Shown here one piece after another: positions 46,342-54,375 of a DNA stretch of 64,000 bases (positions within the stretch are counted from its first letter, which is position 1; every line of letters starts with the position of its first letter). Source of the stretch: Desulfoscipio gibsoniae DSM 7213 (lineage in GTDB: Bacteria; Bacillota; Desulfotomaculia; Desulfotomaculales; Desulfallaceae). The stretch lies in assembly GCF_000233715.2 (NCBI RefSeq), contig NC_021184.1, forward strand, positions 496,001 to 560,000, written 5' to 3'. The translations under genes and the position numbers were made by a program. The notes under the pieces were generated by a model that did no database searches, was not told the DNA's origin, and worked only from the letters and a program-made list of their open reading frames with translations.

Positions 46342-47829
46342 GGGAGTGTAAATAATTCCGTGTAAATGGCTTGATCCCGCTATAAACTGGTTAAGCTAGT
46401 AATGGCTCTTTCCCGCTAGGAGGGTAAGGCTCTGCTGGAGAGCAACCTGAGCGCCTAACGGGGTTCTGCCGGGGATAGCAGAGGGGTAACCTGTTGCCCC
46501 TCATCCCTTACATTTATCCTTGAGGAGAACAAAAGCGTAAAACTCAATTTTTTTATATAGCCATCTCTGATTCTATCCTATCACCAAAGTATATGGCAAA
46601 TTGGGAGATGCAATTTTTCCAATCTTTAACTGGCATAGTCCATTTTTTGGCTGCTTCAACGGTGGCCAGGTAAATAATTTTTTTCAGTGCATCGTCTGTT
46701 GGATAGGCAGTTTTAGTTTTGGTTACTTTCCGTAGTTGCCGGTGGTAACCCTCGATGATATTAGTAGTATAAATCATTTTACGGATTTCATATGGGTATT
46801 TAAAATAAGCTGTTAATTCAAGCCAATTCTTCTCCCAAGAACGAATTATAATGGGATGTCTTTTACCCCAGTTTTCTTTGAATATTTCAAAGGCTAACTC
46901 GGCCTCTTCCAGGGTTAACGCCTGGTATACTTGCTTAAGATCAGCCATCAGTTCCTTTTGTTCTTTGTATGGCACATACTTTAGGGAATTACGGATTTGG
47001 TGAATGATACAAAGCTGAATTTCGGTTTTGGGGAAAACCGTGTTTATAGCCTCGGAAAACCCGGAAAGCCCGTCTTTACAGGCAATCAGGATGTCTTGCA
47101 CTCCCCTGCTTTTGAGATCATTACATACGCCAAGCCAAAAGCTAGCACTTTCATTTTCCCCAATCCAGATGCCAAGTATTTCTTTTTGGCCAGCCATATT
47201 TAGGGCCAACACACTATAGGCCGCCTTGTTTATTATCCGGTTATCTTTACGAACCTTGAAATGGATAGCATCAAGAAAAACAATAGGGTATATACGGTCA
47301 AGTGTCCGGGACTGCCACTCTGCAATCATCGGTAGTATTTTGTCTGTTATCTTGCTGACCATGGTAGGGGATACGTCGATACCGTAGATATCCCTCATGT
47401 GGTCCTCAATATCACGTGTAGACATACCCTTGGCGTACATGGCTATAATTTGGTCTTCAAGCTGGTTGGATGTCTTTTCATATTTGCCGATAATCCTGGG
47501 TTCAAATTCACCATTACGATCCCGTGGGATTTCTACTTCTGTCTTGCCAAACTTAGTTTGGATAGTCTTCTTATTGTAACCGTTGCGACTGTTGCCAGTA
47601 TTATTGCCTTCAATGCTGTGTTTTTTATACCCGAGGTGCTCTTCAATTTCAGCCTCGAATATCTGCTGCAAGGTGTCCTTGAATAGATTCTTGAGCATCT
47701 CATGTACGTCTTCTACGGTGCGGCAATCCTTTGCTAATTCCTTGATCGTTTTGTCTTGCATGGCTTGCATAAATGGTCATCTCCTTTATTGGTAGTTATA
47801 ACCATTTACACTAAATTAATTACGTTCTC
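46342..47829 (-). mobile_element. IS256-family insertion sequence
   Basis: 1488 bp. Terminal inverted repeats of about 28 bp share TAATT and GTGTAAATGG (left GGGAGTGTAAATAATT..., right GAGAACGTAATTAATT...). Flanked by the 8-bp duplication ATCAAAAG (46334-46341 and 47830-47837), the size expected for IS256. Removing it rejoins the RIT left end, so it is one of the latest arrivals. Confidence 0.92.
46553..47770 (-). CDS. IS256-family transposase (mutator type)
   Basis: 405 aa; AAAGGAGATG upstream of the ATG. The DDE residues lie in VFLDAIHFKVR, LIACKDGLSGFSEAI and TTNIIEGYHRQLRKVTK. Full length and apparently intact, so the element may still be active. Confidence 0.95.
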   Translation of the reverse strand: MQAMQDKTIKELAKDCRTVEDVHEMLKNLFKDTLQQIFEAEIEEHLGYKKHSIEGNNTGNSRNGYNKKTIQTKFGKTEVEIPRDRNGEFEPRIIGKYEKTSNQLEDQIIAMYAKGMSTRDIEDHMRDIYGIDVSPTMVSKITDKILPMIAEWQSRTLDRIYPIVFLDAIHFKVRKDNRIINKAAYSVLALNMAGQKEILGIWIGENESASFWLGVCNDLKSRGVQDILIACKDGLSGFSEAINTVFPKTEIQLCIIHQIRNSLKYVPYKEQKELMADLKQVYQALTLEEAELAFEIFKENWGKRHPIIIRSWEKNWLELTAYFKYPYEIRKMIYTTNIIEGYHRQLRKVTKTKTAYPTDDALKKIIYLATVEAAKKWTMPVKDWKNCISQFAIYFGDRIESEMAI

Positions 47830-47859: not shown

Positions 47860-48873
47860 TCACTTCAAGCTAGACAACCAGTTAAGAAGGCTGGTATTTT
47901 GAGACCAATCGGGAAGATCGCTGTCAACCAATTCAGGGTATGCATTCTCAATTGCCCGCCGCTTGAGTTCGGTATCGCATTTTGCATATACTTCGGTTGT
48001 CTTTATATCTACATGTCCAAGAAAGTCCCGGATATAAATAAGATTGACGCCAGCCTGAAGCAAATGAACACTTTTGCTGTGGCGGAACATATGTGGGGTC
48101 ACCCGTTCAGGTACAATACTCGAAACCTGTCTGGCAGACGTCACATACTTGGAAATGATATAGGAGACACCTTCTTTTGTGAGCTTGTTGTGTTGTTTGT
48201 TGGTGAACAGCAGATAGTCGCTCTTCCACGGCTTTTCGAGCTTGTTTTCATGAATGTAACTATCAAGAAGCGTGGCAGTATTTTTCATCAAAGGTACACG
48301 GCGTGTTTTGTTGCCTTTCCCGGTTAAAACTAAGACTGACGGATCCGTTAATATGACATCCCGCACCTTAAGATCAACCAGTTCCTGTACCCGGCATCCA
48401 GAATCATAGAGAACCGACAGCAACGTAAGGTCGCGGCGCCCTTTGGGTGTAGATTTATCCGGTTGGGACAGCAACAACTGCATGGCATCTGTGTTCAGAT
48501 GCGGAACATCCGATTTAGGCGCTTTTTTAACCGGAATGGATAGCACCTTTTGGAAGTTAGCCAATCCCATCGGTTCTTCATATTGGGCATATCGAAAGAA
48601 TGAATGTATTGCCGTCAGCCTCTGGTTTCTTGTTGAAATGCTGCAATTACGATTGGTTTCAAGCCATCCGAGAAAATCTGCAACCAAATCATGGGTAAGC
48701 ATACGCATGGTCAGTTTTTCAGCGGGTATGTCTTGCTGCTCCTGACAGTATTGGAGTAACAGCTTAAAAGTGTCCCTGTACGACGCGATCGTGTTCTTGC
48801 TTGCATTCTTCTGCGCCGGCAAATATACCGTAAGAAACTGTGTGAGATGTTCCGCAAAGTCAGTGGATTGCAT
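47860..48873 (-). CDS. RIT tyrosine recombinase, third gene
   Basis: 337 aa from the ATG at 48873 (GGGAGGTG upstream; the frame is open further up). SAM-like domain (ASKNTIASYRDTFKLLLQYC), catalytic Arg in YDSGCRVQEL, TPHMFRHSKSVHLL, and LGHVDIKTTEVYAKC with the Tyr nucleophile. Overlaps the middle gene by 14 bp. Stop lies 8 bp from an inner RIT end motif. Confidence 0.9.
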   Translation of the reverse strand: MQSTDFAEHLTQFLTVYLPAQKNASKNTIASYRDTFKLLLQYCQEQQDIPAEKLTMRMLTHDLVADFLGWLETNRNCSISTRNQRLTAIHSFFRYAQYEEPMGLANFQKVLSIPVKKAPKSDVPHLNTDAMQLLLSQPDKSTPKGRRDLTLLSVLYDSGCRVQELVDLKVRDVILTDPSVLVLTGKGNKTRRVPLMKNTATLLDSYIHENKLEKPWKSDYLLFTNKQHNKLTKEGVSYIISKYVTSARQVSSIVPERVTPHMFRHSKSVHLLQAGVNLIYIRDFLGHVDIKTTEVYAKCDTELKRRAIENAYPELVDSDLPDWSQNTSLLNWLSSLK

Positions 48874-49834
48874 CAACCGCACCTCCCAGAGAGGGGATGA
48901 TATCCGGATAGTATCCTTCAAGTTTGATAGTGATGTCCGGAAAAACATCGGCGGTGAGTCTCAGATAATATGCCGTGTCCTTAAAGGAATCGTGTCCCAT
49001 ATATGTTTTCAAAATTGGAAGATACACCGAGAGATCTTTCCCGTCGGCAACCCACTTTTTCAGGCAATGGCAAGCGTAAACATGGCGAAAATCATATATT
49101 CTTGGGCCTTTTCCGCGCCCTCCATGAGAAATGCCGGCTTTCCACAGAAACCGTCTGAAATTATGGTATGCGTTTCCTGCTGTCATTGGTTTGCCGTTAA
49201 GACCTGGGAAAAACCATTTGCTGTCACCTATACCGATAGCATAGTCGCGACAACGAGCTGTAAGTGCGGCTGACATCGGTACAAGTCTGCTGTTATCTTT
49301 TTTTGAATGTTGGATGGACAGTATTCCATCGTTAAGGTTAACGTCTTCCGTTTTCAGCAGCCTTGCCTCTTGCGGTCGGAGTCCACAGGAATAAATCATC
49401 CTGAAGAACACCGGCATGACCAAATGCCTGTAAGGGCATTCACTGACATAATGGCATTGATCTGTGGCACTAAAAAAGCGCAGGAGCTCATTCTCAGTGA
49501 AGATGTACGGAATATACTTCTCCTCAGCTGGGTAATAGCCTTTCGGCAGGATATATGCGTTAATTCCAATGTTGTCCATGTAAATCGCAAGTTGCCGGAG
49601 CGTGGATGCTCTTGCACATTGAGTAGCTTGCGCTTCGTAAAGTTTCTTTGTGCACCAATCGAGAACGATTTCTCGGGTAAGGGCGGTTGCATCGGGATAT
49701 TTTTCAGCTGTGAATATGGAAAACCGCATCAAGTTTTTCGCATCCGCCTCGAATTTATAGCCTATGGCCCGTTTGAGTGAAATATGGTCTGTGATATATT
49801 CGGCAAAAGGTCCTTTGAAAGAAAGGTCATGCAT
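48860..49834 (-). CDS. RIT tyrosine recombinase, middle gene
   Basis: 324 aa. Catalytic Arg in YSCGLRPQEARLL, YDFRHVYACHCLKKW in place of the usual HxLRH box, and MGHDSFKDTAYYLRL. The altered box II is typical of the divergent middle member of such trios. Overlaps the first gene by 8 bp. Confidence 0.88.
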   Translation of the reverse strand: MHDLSFKGPFAEYITDHISLKRAIGYKFEADAKNLMRFSIFTAEKYPDATALTREIVLDWCTKKLYEAQATQCARASTLRQLAIYMDNIGINAYILPKGYYPAEEKYIPYIFTENELLRFFSATDQCHYVSECPYRHLVMPVFFRMIYSCGLRPQEARLLKTEDVNLNDGILSIQHSKKDNSRLVPMSAALTARCRDYAIGIGDSKWFFPGLNGKPMTAGNAYHNFRRFLWKAGISHGGRGKGPRIYDFRHVYACHCLKKWVADGKDLSVYLPILKTYMGHDSFKDTAYYLRLTADVFPDITIKLEGYYPDIIPSLGGAVDAIH

Positions 49835-51065
49835 GAGGAGTCACCTCCGGCATGTCCAGGGCGCATTCCCTCAGCTTGCTTATGTCTACCTTTAAATAGA
49901 CTGCGGTGGAGTCTGTATTGGAATGGCCGAGGATATCTGAAATCACCTCAAGAGGAGTATCGTGCTCAAGCATTCTGGACGCTGCCGTATGGCGAAGAGA
50001 GTGCATTCCGCGGCGCTTTTTCAGCGTTGGCAAATGTGCAATCTGCATATACGATTTAATCAACTGGGATAAATGGTCCCCTTCTGAAAAAGGAAGAAAC
50101 GGCGCCATATGACGAACAAAGATAACGGGGGAATCTACTTTGGGCCGCCCATACTGCAAATAATCTATGACTGCCCAGCCTACTTCCTTCGGTATCGGGA
50201 GGGTAACTGTTTCATGAGTCTTTGACTGTGTGAAGGTCAGCTTCTTTTCCTCCCAGTTAAAATTGGAAAAAGTCAACTGTTTTATGTCGGTAACACGCAG
50301 TCCTAAAATGCAAGCCAATAAAATGATGGCGTAATCGCGTTTTCCCTTGGGGCTTCCGCGGTCGATGGCTCCAATCAGTGCTTTAAGCTCTTCCTTTGTC
50401 CAAACAGACGGAATTCTGGTCTGCTTTCTTGCCTGTACCATCGGCGTTTTTGATGCCAGATCTTCATTCAGGATACCCTTATCGTTCAGGTATCTCAGAA
50501 ATGCCCTGATTGAGCAAATGTTCTGCTCCACGGTTTTGTAGGTGTATCCGACCAGCGTTCTAATGTATCCGTTCACAAGCGGTAGAGTGATTTTGCTGCA
50601 ATTATATATGCCTTGTGCAAGAAGATAATCCATAAATCGCGCCGACTGCTTCACATAGTGGTCGATCGTAACAGACGAGTATTCCTTGCGCTCGCAATGA
50701 TACCTGAAATCCGTGCTGATATCAACATAATACGGATCTGTAAGCAGTTCATGGTGTTTGTAGTACCGCCTCAGCACAACATGATGAAGCTGGAAATCTC
50801 CGATCATCCTTACGACACGGATATCCTGAACATCTCGCTGAGAAAGGGTATTGTCCAGGTCTTTTCGCAATATGTGAAACTGAGTTTCAAGAAAATCTAG
50901 CCCCAACTGCTCCGAAAAGTAGGTTGCGCCTCGTTCTTCTGCGAATTTCAGCAACTTGAGCCAACGCCTTCGGTAAAAGCTCATGGTGCCTTCAACATAG
51001 CCCAGGCGCAACAGTTCATGCTCCAAGTCCTGCAATAATTCTTTAAGTGTTCTTTGCACATTCAT
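49827..51065 (-). CDS. RIT tyrosine recombinase, first gene
   Basis: 412 aa, the longest of the three. Extended N-terminus with LGYVEGTMSFYRRRWLKLL; catalytic motifs CILGLRVTDIKQL, HSLRHTAASRML and LGHSNTDSTAVYLKV. First gene of the trio, about 50 bp inside the inner right RIT motif. Confidence 0.9.
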   Translation of the reverse strand: MNVQRTLKELLQDLEHELLRLGYVEGTMSFYRRRWLKLLKFAEERGATYFSEQLGLDFLETQFHILRKDLDNTLSQRDVQDIRVVRMIGDFQLHHVVLRRYYKHHELLTDPYYVDISTDFRYHCERKEYSSVTIDHYVKQSARFMDYLLAQGIYNCSKITLPLVNGYIRTLVGYTYKTVEQNICSIRAFLRYLNDKGILNEDLASKTPMVQARKQTRIPSVWTKEELKALIGAIDRGSPKGKRDYAIILLACILGLRVTDIKQLTFSNFNWEEKKLTFTQSKTHETVTLPIPKEVGWAVIDYLQYGRPKVDSPVIFVRHMAPFLPFSEGDHLSQLIKSYMQIAHLPTLKKRRGMHSLRHTAASRMLEHDTPLEVISDILGHSNTDSTAVYLKVDISKLRECALDMPEVTPHA

Positions 51066-51205: not shown

Positions 51206-51886
51206 CTGAGTCCGATTCTTAGCAATATCATGCTAAATGAACTGGACAAAGAACTTGAAAGAAGGGGGCACAGGTTCGTCCGCTACGCGGACGACCTAAT
51301 AATCTTCTGTAAAAGTAGGAGAAGTGCAAAGCGCACATACGAAAACATACTTCCATATATCGAGAAGAAACTATTTCTTAAAGTAAATAGAGAGAAAACG
51401 GCGGTTGACTACATAGGTAAAGTGAAATTTCTTGGGTTTGCATTCTACCGGTATAAGGGCAAAGCGAGAGTCAGAATTCATCCGAAATCCGTTGCAAAGA
51501 TGAGAAATAAAGTGAGAGAACTCACCTCCAGGAGCAACGGAATGGGCAATGAAGTCAGAGCAATGAAACTTAGACGCTATATTATGGGGTGGGTCAACTA
51601 CTTCAAGATAGCGGACATGAAGAAGCTATTGTCTACTACGGATGAATGGATGCGAAGACGTATCCGCATGGTTTTCTGGAAACAGTGGAAACGAGTGAGG
51701 ACAAGATTTAAAATGCTCAAATCACTTGGAGTCCACGAACAAAAAGCATGGGAATATGCAAACACTAGGAAAGGCTACTGGAGAACCTCCCATAGCCCAA
51801 TCCTATCCAAATCCCTTAGAAATGATGTACTCAAAGGGTTTGGGTTCCTATTCTTTTCAGAGTATTATCGACAAGTCACAGCGTAA
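51206..51886 (+). pseudogene. Group II intron reverse transcriptase, C-terminal part
   Basis: About 226 codons resuming at GPLSPILSNIMLNELDKELE. Holds the catalytic RYADDLIIF, the thumb (NREKTAVDYIGKVKFLGFAF) and maturase X domain (LRRYIMGWVNYFKIADMKKL), and ends EYYRQVTA. There is no endonuclease domain. Joined with 43075-43820 it gives a standard intron-encoded protein of about 475 aa; split, it cannot work. Confidence 0.9.
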
Positions 51887-51970
51887 ACTAAGGAACCGCC
51901 GTGTACCGAACGGTACGCACGGTGGTGTGGGAGGTCGGCTACTCAACTAATGGGTGGCCTCCTACCCGAT
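51887..51970 (+). ncRNA. Group II intron domains V and VI
   Basis: GAACCGCCGTGTACCGAACG and its pairing partner CGGTACGCACGGTGGTGTGG form the domain V hairpin. Domain VI (GGCTACTCAACTAATGGGTGGCC region) follows with a bulged A, ending CCGAT at the 3' splice site. Confidence 0.82.
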
Positions 51971-52615
51971 TCTATAATCACCTGTTCGGTCTGGTGGAAC
52001 CAACACATTTGATGTATTGAAATTGCAGACATTGCGTTTTCATAAACCACTTTAGCGCGTGGAACCAACACATTTGATGTATTGAAATGTCTGAGCAAAC
52101 ATTGCCACCTGCTCAACCCTTGGGGTGGAACCAACACATTTGATGTATTGAAATCCAATACTGCATATCCTTGGCAAAGGTGAAATGGACGTGGAACCAA
52201 CACATTTGATGTATTGAAATGTGGTTCGCGAACTTCTATTTAAGTGGACTTGACCAGTGGAACCAACACATTTGATGTATTGAAATAGCTAATGTAAGTG
52301 CAAAGATTGGATTAATTAGTTGTGGAACCAACACATTTGATGTATTGAAATACCGGTTAAGCAAAAAACTGAACAGGTAGTTAAGAAGGTGGAACCAACA
52401 CATTTGATGTATTGAAATCCGTTTACACCGAGGTAACCGATGAAGCCAGGAAGTGTGGAACCAACACATTTGATGTATTGAAATAAACCTTGGGGATGCC
52501 AGTAGCCTACGGTGAGTTTGGTGGAACCAACACATTTGATGTATTGAAATTCCTGAGTAGAAAGTGCCTGACGTATAGGCATAATGTGGAACCAACACAT
52601 TTGATGTATTGAAAT
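51971..52615 (+). CRISPR. CRISPR array, block 3 (10 repeats)
   Basis: Begins with the right 23 nt of the spacer split by the intron, then 10 repeats from 51994 to 52615, same sequence and polarity. After the last copy only about 5 bases (ACTAC) remain before the IS3 end. Confidence 0.98.
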
Positions 52616-52860
52616 ACTACAATGGACCCCAATGTCAAGACACGATTTTTTTAAATTCAAAGCGACACTGGGTATAGCATTAACATAAAAACCTTTCCGA
52701 CTGAATGTTTCGATGCGTTAGAAAGACGCAATAAGGTTAATGTATACTGAGCCAACTAATATTTCACAATAATTAGAAAACATGGCGGTCTCCAGAGGGA
52801 GGGGTAGTTATCCCCATTTACAACGCTTAGCCGCCGCTTGCGGTCGGAGCGAAGCGGAGA

Positions 52861-52967
52861 GTCTTGACTCCATGTGCTAGGCTTAATAAACCCGACCGTA
52901 GACAATTGATTTTTTGGCGTATATCCGTCGGTCGGGTTACCCATTAAACAGCACATGGAGTCAAGAC
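52861..52967. repeat. Nested inverted repeats in the IS3 tail
   Basis: Outer arms are perfect 18-mers: GTCTTGACTCCATGTGCT (52861-52878) and its complement (52950-52967). Inner arms are perfect 10-mers: AACCCGACCG (52889-52898) and CGGTCGGGTT (52929-52938). Just left lies CCGCTT/AAGCGG (about 52833-52856). The RNA or cruciform formed would be very stable. It may be a miniature element inserted in the IS, or a structured RNA. Confidence 0.8.
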
Positions 52968-53080
52968 CGGCGGTCTCTTTGTTCACATCAGCTTGCTTAA
53001 GGTTTGACAGCGGTGTTCTCAAAATATTAACTCAGTAGCCAATTGGCCATTTATTTAATCCCCACTTTCAAATATCCTGG

Positions 53081-53947
53081 TTATGCAGATTGCTGTGGTA
53101 AGTTAGTAGTAGCATAATAAACATCCGCTGGAGTCTTCTTGCCAATAGATGTGTGCGGGCGCTCGAAATTGTAATAACGCATGAAAGCAGTAATTCCTTG
53201 GCGGAGAGCACGAGGGGTTTCGTAGTTCTTTAAATAAATATCTTCCCATTTGATGGTTCTCCAAAAGCGCTCTGCAATGGCGTTATCCAGGGCCCTACCT
53301 TTACCGTCCATGCTAATCTTAATGCCATGTTCTTTCAGCGTATTTATATAAACAGGGCTGGTAAATTGACTGCCCTGATCACTATTCAATATGATAGGGG
53401 CTCCGTGCGTTTCGATGGCTTTTTTTACAGCCTTAATCACAAATTCCTTATTCATCGTATCGGAAAGCTCGTATCCAACAATCATTCTGGAATACCAGTC
53501 AATGATGGCCACCAGGTACATCCAACGGCCTTGCATGGCACAATACGTAATGTCGATTCCCCAGACATGGTTAGGGTGGGCCGGTTTGACATTGCGAAGC
53601 AGGTATGGGTATACATACTGGGCCCTATTACGTTTGCTGAGGTTGGGGCCGGGGTAAATCACCCGTATTCCCATTTCCCGCATATATCGTTGAATGCGTT
53701 TGCGGTTGACCTTATAATCTACGCCATCCATGTTATTAATGTCGTCAACAATCCGCCTGGAGCCTTTAAATGGGTGCTGCGTGTGGATCTTATCTATTAG
53801 GTGCTTAATTTCCACTTCGTGTTTAGACACCTTTTTGGCAGTCCAGTATAGACCAGTTCGATTCAAAGATAATAGCCCGGCCTGAGCTTTTATGGTTAAG
53901 TGTGAATTTGAGATATCCCAATCCACCATAGCTTTTCGTTCATTCAC
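53081..53947 (-). CDS. IS3-family transposase OrfB (DDE)
   Basis: 288 aa, GTG start. IS3 HTH_21 region (GLLSLNRTGLYWTAKKV), then rve core with Asp in VWGIDITYCAMQGRW, Asp in ILNSDQGSQFTSP and Glu in AIAERFWRTIKWEDIYL. It starts inside the orfA stop region (GTGAATGA). OrfB is in the +1 frame relative to orfA, so coupling at that overlap is simpler than the usual -1 slip, even though an A9 run is present at 53967-53975. Confidence 0.93.
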   Translation of the reverse strand: MNERKAMVDWDISNSHLTIKAQAGLLSLNRTGLYWTAKKVSKHEVEIKHLIDKIHTQHPFKGSRRIVDDINNMDGVDYKVNRKRIQRYMREMGIRVIYPGPNLSKRNRAQYVYPYLLRNVKPAHPNHVWGIDITYCAMQGRWMYLVAIIDWYSRMIVGYELSDTMNKEFVIKAVKKAIETHGAPIILNSDQGSQFTSPVYINTLKEHGIKISMDGKGRALDNAIAERFWRTIKWEDIYLKNYETPRALRQGITAFMRYYNFERPHTSIGKKTPADVYYATTNLPQQSA

Positions 53948-54248
53948 GGGGTAAGATACCGCCAGATTTTTTTTTAAGCCAATCCAACTGTGTTGTTAGA
54001 CGGCCGACTTGCGCGTATAAGTTTTCGATGGTTTCTTCTTGTTTGCGCTTTTCTTGGGCAGCTGCCTTAGCACTCTTAGAGGTGGCGAATACCTTGTCAG
54101 CGCCTTCTAAGAGCTCCTTCTTCCAGCGGTGTATCACACTGACATGTACCCCGTATTCCGAGGCAATTTCGCCTATGTGGCGTTCTTCTTTTAGGGCTTC
54201 TAAAACGATCTGCAATTTTTGCTCTGGTGACCACTGTTTTTTTTGCAT
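53940..54248 (-). CDS. IS3-family OrfA (helix-turn-helix)
   Basis: 102 aa. HTH_Tnp_1 domain: KQWSPEQKLQIVLEALKEER, then ASEYGVHVSVIHRWKKELLE, then a leucine-zipper-like coil (ENLYAQVGRLTTQLDWL). GGAGCACATCCCC lies before the ATG. Binds the element ends and regulates OrfB. Confidence 0.93.
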   Translation of the reverse strand: MQKKQWSPEQKLQIVLEALKEERHIGEIASEYGVHVSVIHRWKKELLEGADKVFATSKSAKAAAQEKRKQEETIENLYAQVGRLTTQLDWLKKKSGGILPRE

Positions 54249-54375
54249 GGGGATGTGCTCCTTTCACTTCTCAGTTTACTTCGAGATTGGTGTCGCTTAT
54301 CCCCTGCAAAATCGTGTCGCATTTCCTGGGACCATTATATACTGATAGATCAGTCTCATTGGCTATGGTTTTTAA

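Follow-up and report, generated by a model that had tools for sequence, protein, structure and literature searches.

The window analysed here is a 64,000-nucleotide stretch of Desulfoscipio gibsoniae DSM 7213 (positions 496,001–560,000 of NC_021184.1, from a genome of 4,855,529 bp in one contig), in which an insertion sequence (IS) of the IS3 family interrupts an array of clustered regularly interspaced short palindromic repeats (CRISPR). The element contains OrfA and OrfB with a DDE transposase, OrfB scores 255 bits against the NCBIfam model transpos_IS3 (NF033516; cut-off, 160), and the element is bounded by the terminal inverted repeats TACAATGG and CCATTATA and by a 3-bp duplication of TAC. 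An earlier note on this DNA had placed the element inside the CRISPR array, and the insertion indeed lies within one spacer, which is 35 nt long without the element (counted by eye). The stop codon of OrfB (53081) is separated from the left end of the element by 463 bp. This tail contains a conserved hairpin module, named core1, and core1 and its relatives core2 and core3 are found behind transposases of several families. The coordinates of the features are listed in Table 1.

The earlier note had described an IS3 element with a structured non-coding tail, and we confirmed each of the structures named: a perfect 18-bp inverted repeat with an outer span of 107 bp, a nested 10-bp repeat, and CCGCTT (52834–52839) with AAGCGG (52852–52857). 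When the 460-nt tail was folded as RNA, the fold of either strand surpassed 100 of 100 dinucleotide shuffles (z = −4.0 and −4.9), and when the 191-nt module was folded as DNA, either strand surpassed 200 of 200 shuffles (z = −6.9 and −7.3). These tests rule out chance structure. The extent of the structured unit differs from the earlier description, because the conserved unit is the 191-bp module, neither the whole 460 bp nor only the 107-bp core. The module consists of an outer stem, a one-sided loop that often holds a GNA mini-hairpin, and a long hairpin of the form CTTGAC...GTCAAG, and its length is approximately 120–190 bp. A decayed coding region was rejected as an explanation, because the sole sizeable frame in the tail (88 aa, 52756–53022) matches nothing in Pfam or NCBIfam and the DNA has stem covariation. 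A known RNA family was also rejected: the Rfam hits consisted of part of a group II intron, located away from the module itself, and of weak matches that fell far short of the gathering scores.

Table 1. Features of the IS3 element and its tail (window positions; aa, amino acids).
Feature	Position	Strand	Basis or remark
Conserved hairpin module core1, 191 bp	52784–52974	+	Antisense to the transposase in lineage A; conserved across copies
GGAGCGAAGCGGAGA motif, one-sided 5' loop	52846–52860	+	Holds GCGAAGC (52849–52855) and AAGCGG
Long hairpin, 5' arm, 18 bp, perfect	52861–52878	+	Inverted-repeat search; compensatory changes
Long hairpin, 3' arm, 18 bp, perfect	52950–52967	+	Inverted-repeat search; compensatory changes
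Nested 10-bp repeat, 5' arm, AACCCGACCG	52889–52898	+	By eye
Nested 10-bp repeat, 3' arm, CGGTCGGGTT	52929–52938	+	By eye
IS3-family element, lineage A, 1722 bp	52618–54339	−	Ends TACAATGGACC...GGGACCATTATA; copies at different sites compared
Target-site duplication TAC	52615–52617 (left), 54340–54342 (right)		Flanks of compared copies
OrfA, 102 aa, HTH_Tnp_1	53940–54248	−	Open reading frame (ORF) list and family search
OrfB, 288 aa, rve / IS3 transposase	53081–53947	−	ORF list and family search
IS-specific stretch, OrfB stop to module	52975–53080	−	Matched mainly by lineage-A copies
IS-specific stretch, left end to module	52618–52783	+	Matched mostly by lineage-A copies and fragments

Occurrence of the module behind transposase genes

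Most of the tail recurs once in the same genome, with 90% identity over tail positions 1–430, next to a further copy of the IS, one that is broken (locus L002), and parts of the tail recur at four more places. A tail covering positions 1–369 or more was also found in the genomes G002, G005, G006, and G011 (G and L numbers denote genomes and loci). The doubt raised in the earlier note, that the tail might be missing from other copies and unconserved, was therefore not borne out. As regards the influence on the pre-crRNA that the earlier note considered, the flanks differ at the other sites where lineage-A copies were seen. Some match to the tail was obtained in 22 of 100 relatives, the own genome counted among them, and the long matches accompany an IS of lineage A, to which the window element belongs, or its remnant. 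The first ~47 bp of the left IS-specific stretch, the subterminal end, are also matched in other genomes. The stretch of about 52777–52974 matches by itself, with 76–89% identity, in other genomes. Such stand-alone matches were obtained in G012, G026, G027, and G056, which gave no transposase match at an E-value of 1e-60, and in G009, which has a 55% relative. They were also obtained in G064, G072, and G087, which lie outside the 60 genomes covered by the transposase comparison.

The earlier note had proposed a search for the 107-bp core elsewhere. With a covariance model built on the 191-bp core, the core or a relative was detected in 19 of the 113 genomes of the order; in a phylum-wide sample of 398 genomes the model had hits in 4, two of which do not belong to the order. 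Core3 matches were obtained in 45 of the 113 genomes (E-value 0.001), some of them short or weak. A pattern search for the loop motif had 24 hits, distributed over 12 of the 113 genomes and located at core1 and core3 sites, and the reversed pattern had none. Among named genomes, an exact 20-base pattern was found at 15 loci in Sporotomaculum, Desulfoscipio, Desulfotruncus, Desulforamulus, Desulfotomaculum, and two Heliobacterium species. Hairpin tails of this class occur in many genomes of the order, so that the rarity ascribed to long tails in the earlier note does not extend to this order. Core1 and core3 were absent from the plasmid and phage collections, for phages the only variants searched; core2 was not found in the plasmid collection, and one core3 variant, the only one searched there, was not found in E. 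coli genomes. Pattern scans of viral contigs gave 0, 3, and 0 hits, of which the three are about what we estimate for chance.

Three IS3 groups, A (the window element), B, and C, carry the module directly after OrfB, and their proteins are 30% (A–B, 157 aa), 31% (A–C, 268 aa), and 25% (B–C, 189 aa) identical. Most B and C modules are approximately 76–89% identical to the window DNA, and the most diverged B copies 73–78%. Relative to the transposase, the module runs antisense in A and sense in B and C. Related modules lie behind five more IS3 lineages, of which D, E, F, and G show 46–60% identity to C and A2 shows 53% to A; between F and G the identity is 82%. Since D–G are related to C and A2 to A, these are counted as three broad IS3 groups and not as eight independent lineages. 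At L133 and L127, both lineage-B copies, a large part of OrfB is missing and the module is kept.

Core2 is a diverged homologue of like layout, in which the stem CGGTATGCT/AGCATACCG replaces CCATGTGCT/AGCACATGG, and it lies behind an ISNCY transposase (L132) and behind an IS3 element of lineage D (L158; 60% identical to C). Core1 was also found behind an IS21 operon, with a small unnamed frame between them (L078). Core3 follows IS256 transposases of the own genome at a distance of 26 bp, the IstB gene of an IS21 element (L228), and further IS3 lineages (L041, L040, L237, L251, and L253). The IS256-family transposase of the window itself (46637–47752; G000:C1:542637–543752) has no module at its locus, unlike five other IS256 copies of the genome.

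The 3' end of a transposase or IstB gene faces the module in 56 of 85 distinct copies, six of these cases being weak, short, or distant (L076, L077, L135, L159, L225, and L240). A transposase or IstB gene lies elsewhere within 900 bp in 3 copies, and none was recognised within 900 bp in the remaining 26, of which 3 lie less than 100 bp from a contig end. The orientation of the module is constant in each lineage, with one weak exception, and differs between lineages. Sharing of the module among unrelated or distantly related transposases is well supported by these observations.

Several neighbours of the module were also recorded. The core1 copy L068 (G064:C1:590292–590480) has no recognised transposase and lies alongside repeats and cas1/cas2-like genes (by eye). 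At L161, a core2-like hairpin lies between two ordinary-looking genes with a piece of core3 about 1.6 kb away, and no transposase was found. In the window, the minus strand at 47860–51065 encodes three consecutive tyrosine recombinases, a RIT-like trio, and the 3' remnant of a group II intron (51230–51970; maturase end plus an Rfam match at 51894–51970) directly precedes the CRISPR array. A similar recombinase trio lies near core2 in L131. An association of the module with the trio or the intron was dropped, because the neighbours are similar at L131 and not at the other listed loci (by eye).

Exchange of the tail between elements

The lineage-D copy of G009 and four other copies (three in G056 and one in G072) are 94.6–94.8% identical over 1203 bp, comprising OrfA and OrfB to the stop codon. 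After the stop codon, the tail contains core2 in G009 and core3 in the G056 and G072 copies, and the copies rejoin at the right end with 91–93% identity over 68–78 bp. Because the same slot holds core2 or core3 in nearly identical elements, the tail is an exchangeable cassette. Pairs of whole elements at different sites are 99.9–100% identical in lineage C (1587 bp), its G087 relative (1534 bp), IS256 (1497 bp), and lineage D (1521 bp), which indicates that the module moves as part of the IS. Core3 also lies in the middle of a 343-bp miniature inverted-repeat transposable element (MITE) with six copies in G087 (L264–L269), the ends of which, TGTAGATTCTCAAATTA and TTAATTTGAGAATTGACA, differ from the module inside. 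Several solitary core3 copies share flanks that resemble, by eye, ISL3-type ends. The "trapped element" of the earlier note comes close to these findings, in that the module is separable, occurs in other IS lineages, and, as core3, lies in a MITE.

The lineage-D swap, the many IS lineages and the MITE that carry the module, and the 26 copies lacking a recognised transposase within 900 bp are all consistent with a hitchhiker, i.e. a selfish palindromic element that would recombine into the free slot behind transposase genes with no benefit to the IS. A terminal repeat common to core1–3 was not seen in the alignments compared by eye, and neither a duplication nor an empty site of the module was seen, though no systematic search for one was made. 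The fixed orientation within lineages speaks against a hitchhiker, as do the compensatory changes described below, since a fold kept in this way suggests a function. We regard this explanation as possible with reservation, close behind the replication site proposed below.

A folded-DNA recombination or attachment site, comparable to the attC site of integrons or to a repetitive extragenic palindrome (REP) used by a Y1 transposase, would also explain the cassette swap of lineage D, and the ORF-plus-hairpin layout and a structure kept without clear strand bias agree with it. However, no attC-type core sequence was seen by eye, and the ORF lists of the loci show no common recombinase (by eye). 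Such a site appears very unlikely.

Evolution of the fold as DNA or RNA

Compensatory changes were counted in two alignments. The core1/core2 alignment contained 23 sequences that we chose, without L159 and the partial copies, and the core3 alignment contained 13 of the 22 copies scoring at least 98 bits, with near-duplicate, partial, and poorly covered copies left out; kinship of the aligned sequences inflates the covariation counts. For the two helices of core1/core2, 97.4% of the cells were paired, and both sides had changed in 31 cells versus 8.4 in shuffles and at most 7 in slid versions. Neither the pairs altered on both sides (6 versus 4.9; reached by 140 of 500 shuffles) nor the pair types (16 versus 15.0) were in excess over shuffles. 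In regard to core3, 91.0% of the cells were paired, both sides had changed in 16 cells versus 5.3 in shuffles, and the 8 pairs with such changes were reached by 1 of 500 shuffles. The outermost stem of core3, which closes the whole module, had changed on both sides in 4 of its 7 pairs. One slid version of core3 also gave 8 pairs, with 22 pair types versus 20, but it gave only 10 cells versus 16 and a lower score. The covariation check suggested in the earlier note therefore supports selection on the fold of a single strand, which by itself does not distinguish DNA from RNA.

Functional RNA is expected to favour G-U pairs on its own strand. The numbers of G-T and A-C cells were 13 versus 5 in core1/core2 and 15 versus 21 in core3. 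On this mixed result, together with the two orientations, we lean to a structure at the DNA level, which seems somewhat likelier than RNA. If the strand carrying GGAGCGAAGCGGAGA were transcribed as the tail of the transposase mRNA or as an antisense RNA, the transcript might control or protect the transposase message; the strong fold, the covariation, the G-U excess of core1/core2, and a promoter-like site upstream of the window module (52719–52748, plus strand, 9/12) are consistent with this. However, the module is sense in some lineages and antisense in others, core3 has no G-U excess, no Rfam family was matched by the module, and promoter-like sites were no commoner in the scan than in shuffles (3 versus 4.1); the second hexamer of the site is not kept in other lineage-A copies (by eye). 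We consider a structured RNA rather unlikely, and the RNA with a role in transposition envisaged in the earlier note is less favoured, because the orientation varies by lineage and a G-U excess over A-C is not consistent.

A bidirectional transcription barrier that shields the IS from adjacent genes would likewise place a strong hairpin, in either orientation, at the end of a gene, and a terminator-like site does lie at the edge of the module (52964–52976). Such sites were, however, no commoner than in shuffles (2 versus 2.1), and a plain barrier would have no need of conserved loop sequences. This explanation is improbable.

The loop motif and a possible role in transposition

The motif GGAGCGAAGCGGAGA contains GCGAAGC, the core of the exceptionally stable DNA mini-hairpin CGCGAAGCG (PMC10527192). 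The core2 mini-hairpin occurs as the variants AC-GAA-GT, AC-GTA-GT, and AC-GCA-GT, in which both the pairing and the GNA loop are kept. A mini-hairpin was found in 45 of the 71 located copies versus 12.6% expected per copy from mononucleotide shuffles, although the copies are not independent and a small number of the hits come from different short hairpins within that stretch. The hexamer AAGCGG, which overlaps GCGAAGC in the window module, is the consensus of PriA-type primosome assembly sites. The loop motif and the F–G region of phiX174, which we take to be the location of the primosome assembly site of this phage, share the 9-mer AGCGAAGCG; 51 of 5000 shuffles match as well.

The sharing of the cassette among unrelated transposons suggests a common role in how the elements move. 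Since the module is used with different transposases and in either orientation, we infer that it serves a host factor and not the transposase. Copy-out/paste-in transposition has been shown for IS3, IS256, and IS30, and host replication factors are expected to process the figure-eight intermediate to a circle (PMC7780238). We tentatively propose that the module is a folded-DNA site used by host replication in copy-out transposition, the mode to which IS21, ISL3, and ISNCY elements also belong. During the copy-out of the IS, the module would work in the form of a folded DNA strand, and a site of the primosome or single-strand-initiation type would help the host replication machinery to convert the branched figure-eight into a double-stranded circle; this copying step is the speculative part. 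The more specific version, in which unrelated copy-out/paste-in elements trade a portable replication-start cassette of the primosome-assembly type that recruits the host replisome to the intermediate, is doubtful.

Primosome assembly and single-strand initiation sites, which are folded single-stranded DNA used by host factors, resemble the module as proposed here, and an AAGCGG/GCGAAGC-type motif may be a further common feature. The known sites belong to phages, plasmids, and integrative and conjugative elements, whereas the module sits in ISs, and the IS256-linked modules are without the motif. We know of no primosome or single-strand initiation site from an IS. Comparable Gram-positive sites are ssiA of the plasmid pAMbeta1, used with PriA, DnaB, DnaD, and DnaI (PMC5703833), and sso1 of ICEBs1, a folded single-strand origin active in one orientation only (PMC4595007).

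Several observations weigh against the proposed replication site. Modules lie either way, in contrast to sso1. The mini-hairpin is absent in 9 of 9 IS256-linked modules, and across the 85 copies AAGCGG was exact in 19, present with one mismatch in 25, and absent in 13, with the stem not located in 28; the class without the hexamer is too large, because the locator failed or put the stem in the wrong place in many core3 copies (e.g. L188). The match to phiX174 was noted post hoc; as for the AAGCGG of the F–G region, 23 of 200 shuffles of the region contain it too. No transposase in view faces the module in 29 of the 85 copies (in 3 of these the contig ends within 100 bp). The module was found at 0 of 23 loci of the IS4/IS5 type, which fits the proposal, and at 1 of 22 IS256 loci (7 and 8 of 30 loci, respectively, dropped for want of a usable ORF), and 5 of 9 IS256 matches of the own genome have it; the module is thus not general to IS256, and this low carriage makes the contrast with IS4/IS5 weak. 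The G-T excess of core1/core2 and the promoter-like site upstream of the window module belong here as well.

Other known systems share single properties with the module. IStrons, which combine a group I intron with an IS, are structured non-coding elements travelling inside an IS (PMC4227781); no intron family was found in the module, and one module class is common to several unrelated DDE transposase families. The bridge RNA or seekRNA of IS110 and IS1111 likewise occupies a long structured non-coding region, but it is tied to the IS110/IS1111 recombinases and to recombination and target choice (PMC11208160, PMC11187229), whereas the module is exchanged among IS3, IS256, IS21, and ISNCY in either orientation. 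REPs, bacterial interspersed mosaic elements (BIMEs), enterobacterial repetitive intergenic consensus (ERIC) repeats, and MITEs are, like the module, palindromic, repeated, intergenic, and sometimes solitary. REPs are reported as IS targets (PMC1525189); the module instead is internal to the IS and occupies the space between the transposase gene and the end. No account of a shared cassette was found in the open PubMed Central papers searched; ISfinder and the subscription literature lay outside the search.

The usual picture of an IS comprises a transposase and the ends. If the proposal is true, a structured non-coding cassette retained and passed around among IS3, IS256, IS21, and ISNCY elements would add a third common part, one that is used by a host factor. 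To our knowledge, the conversion of the figure-eight to the circle by host replication is a weakly understood step of copy-out transposition, and a cis element of this kind would make it directly testable. Should the module turn out to be no more than a hitchhiker, it would represent a novel type of transposon parasite, a palindrome that inhabits the space after transposase genes in many families.
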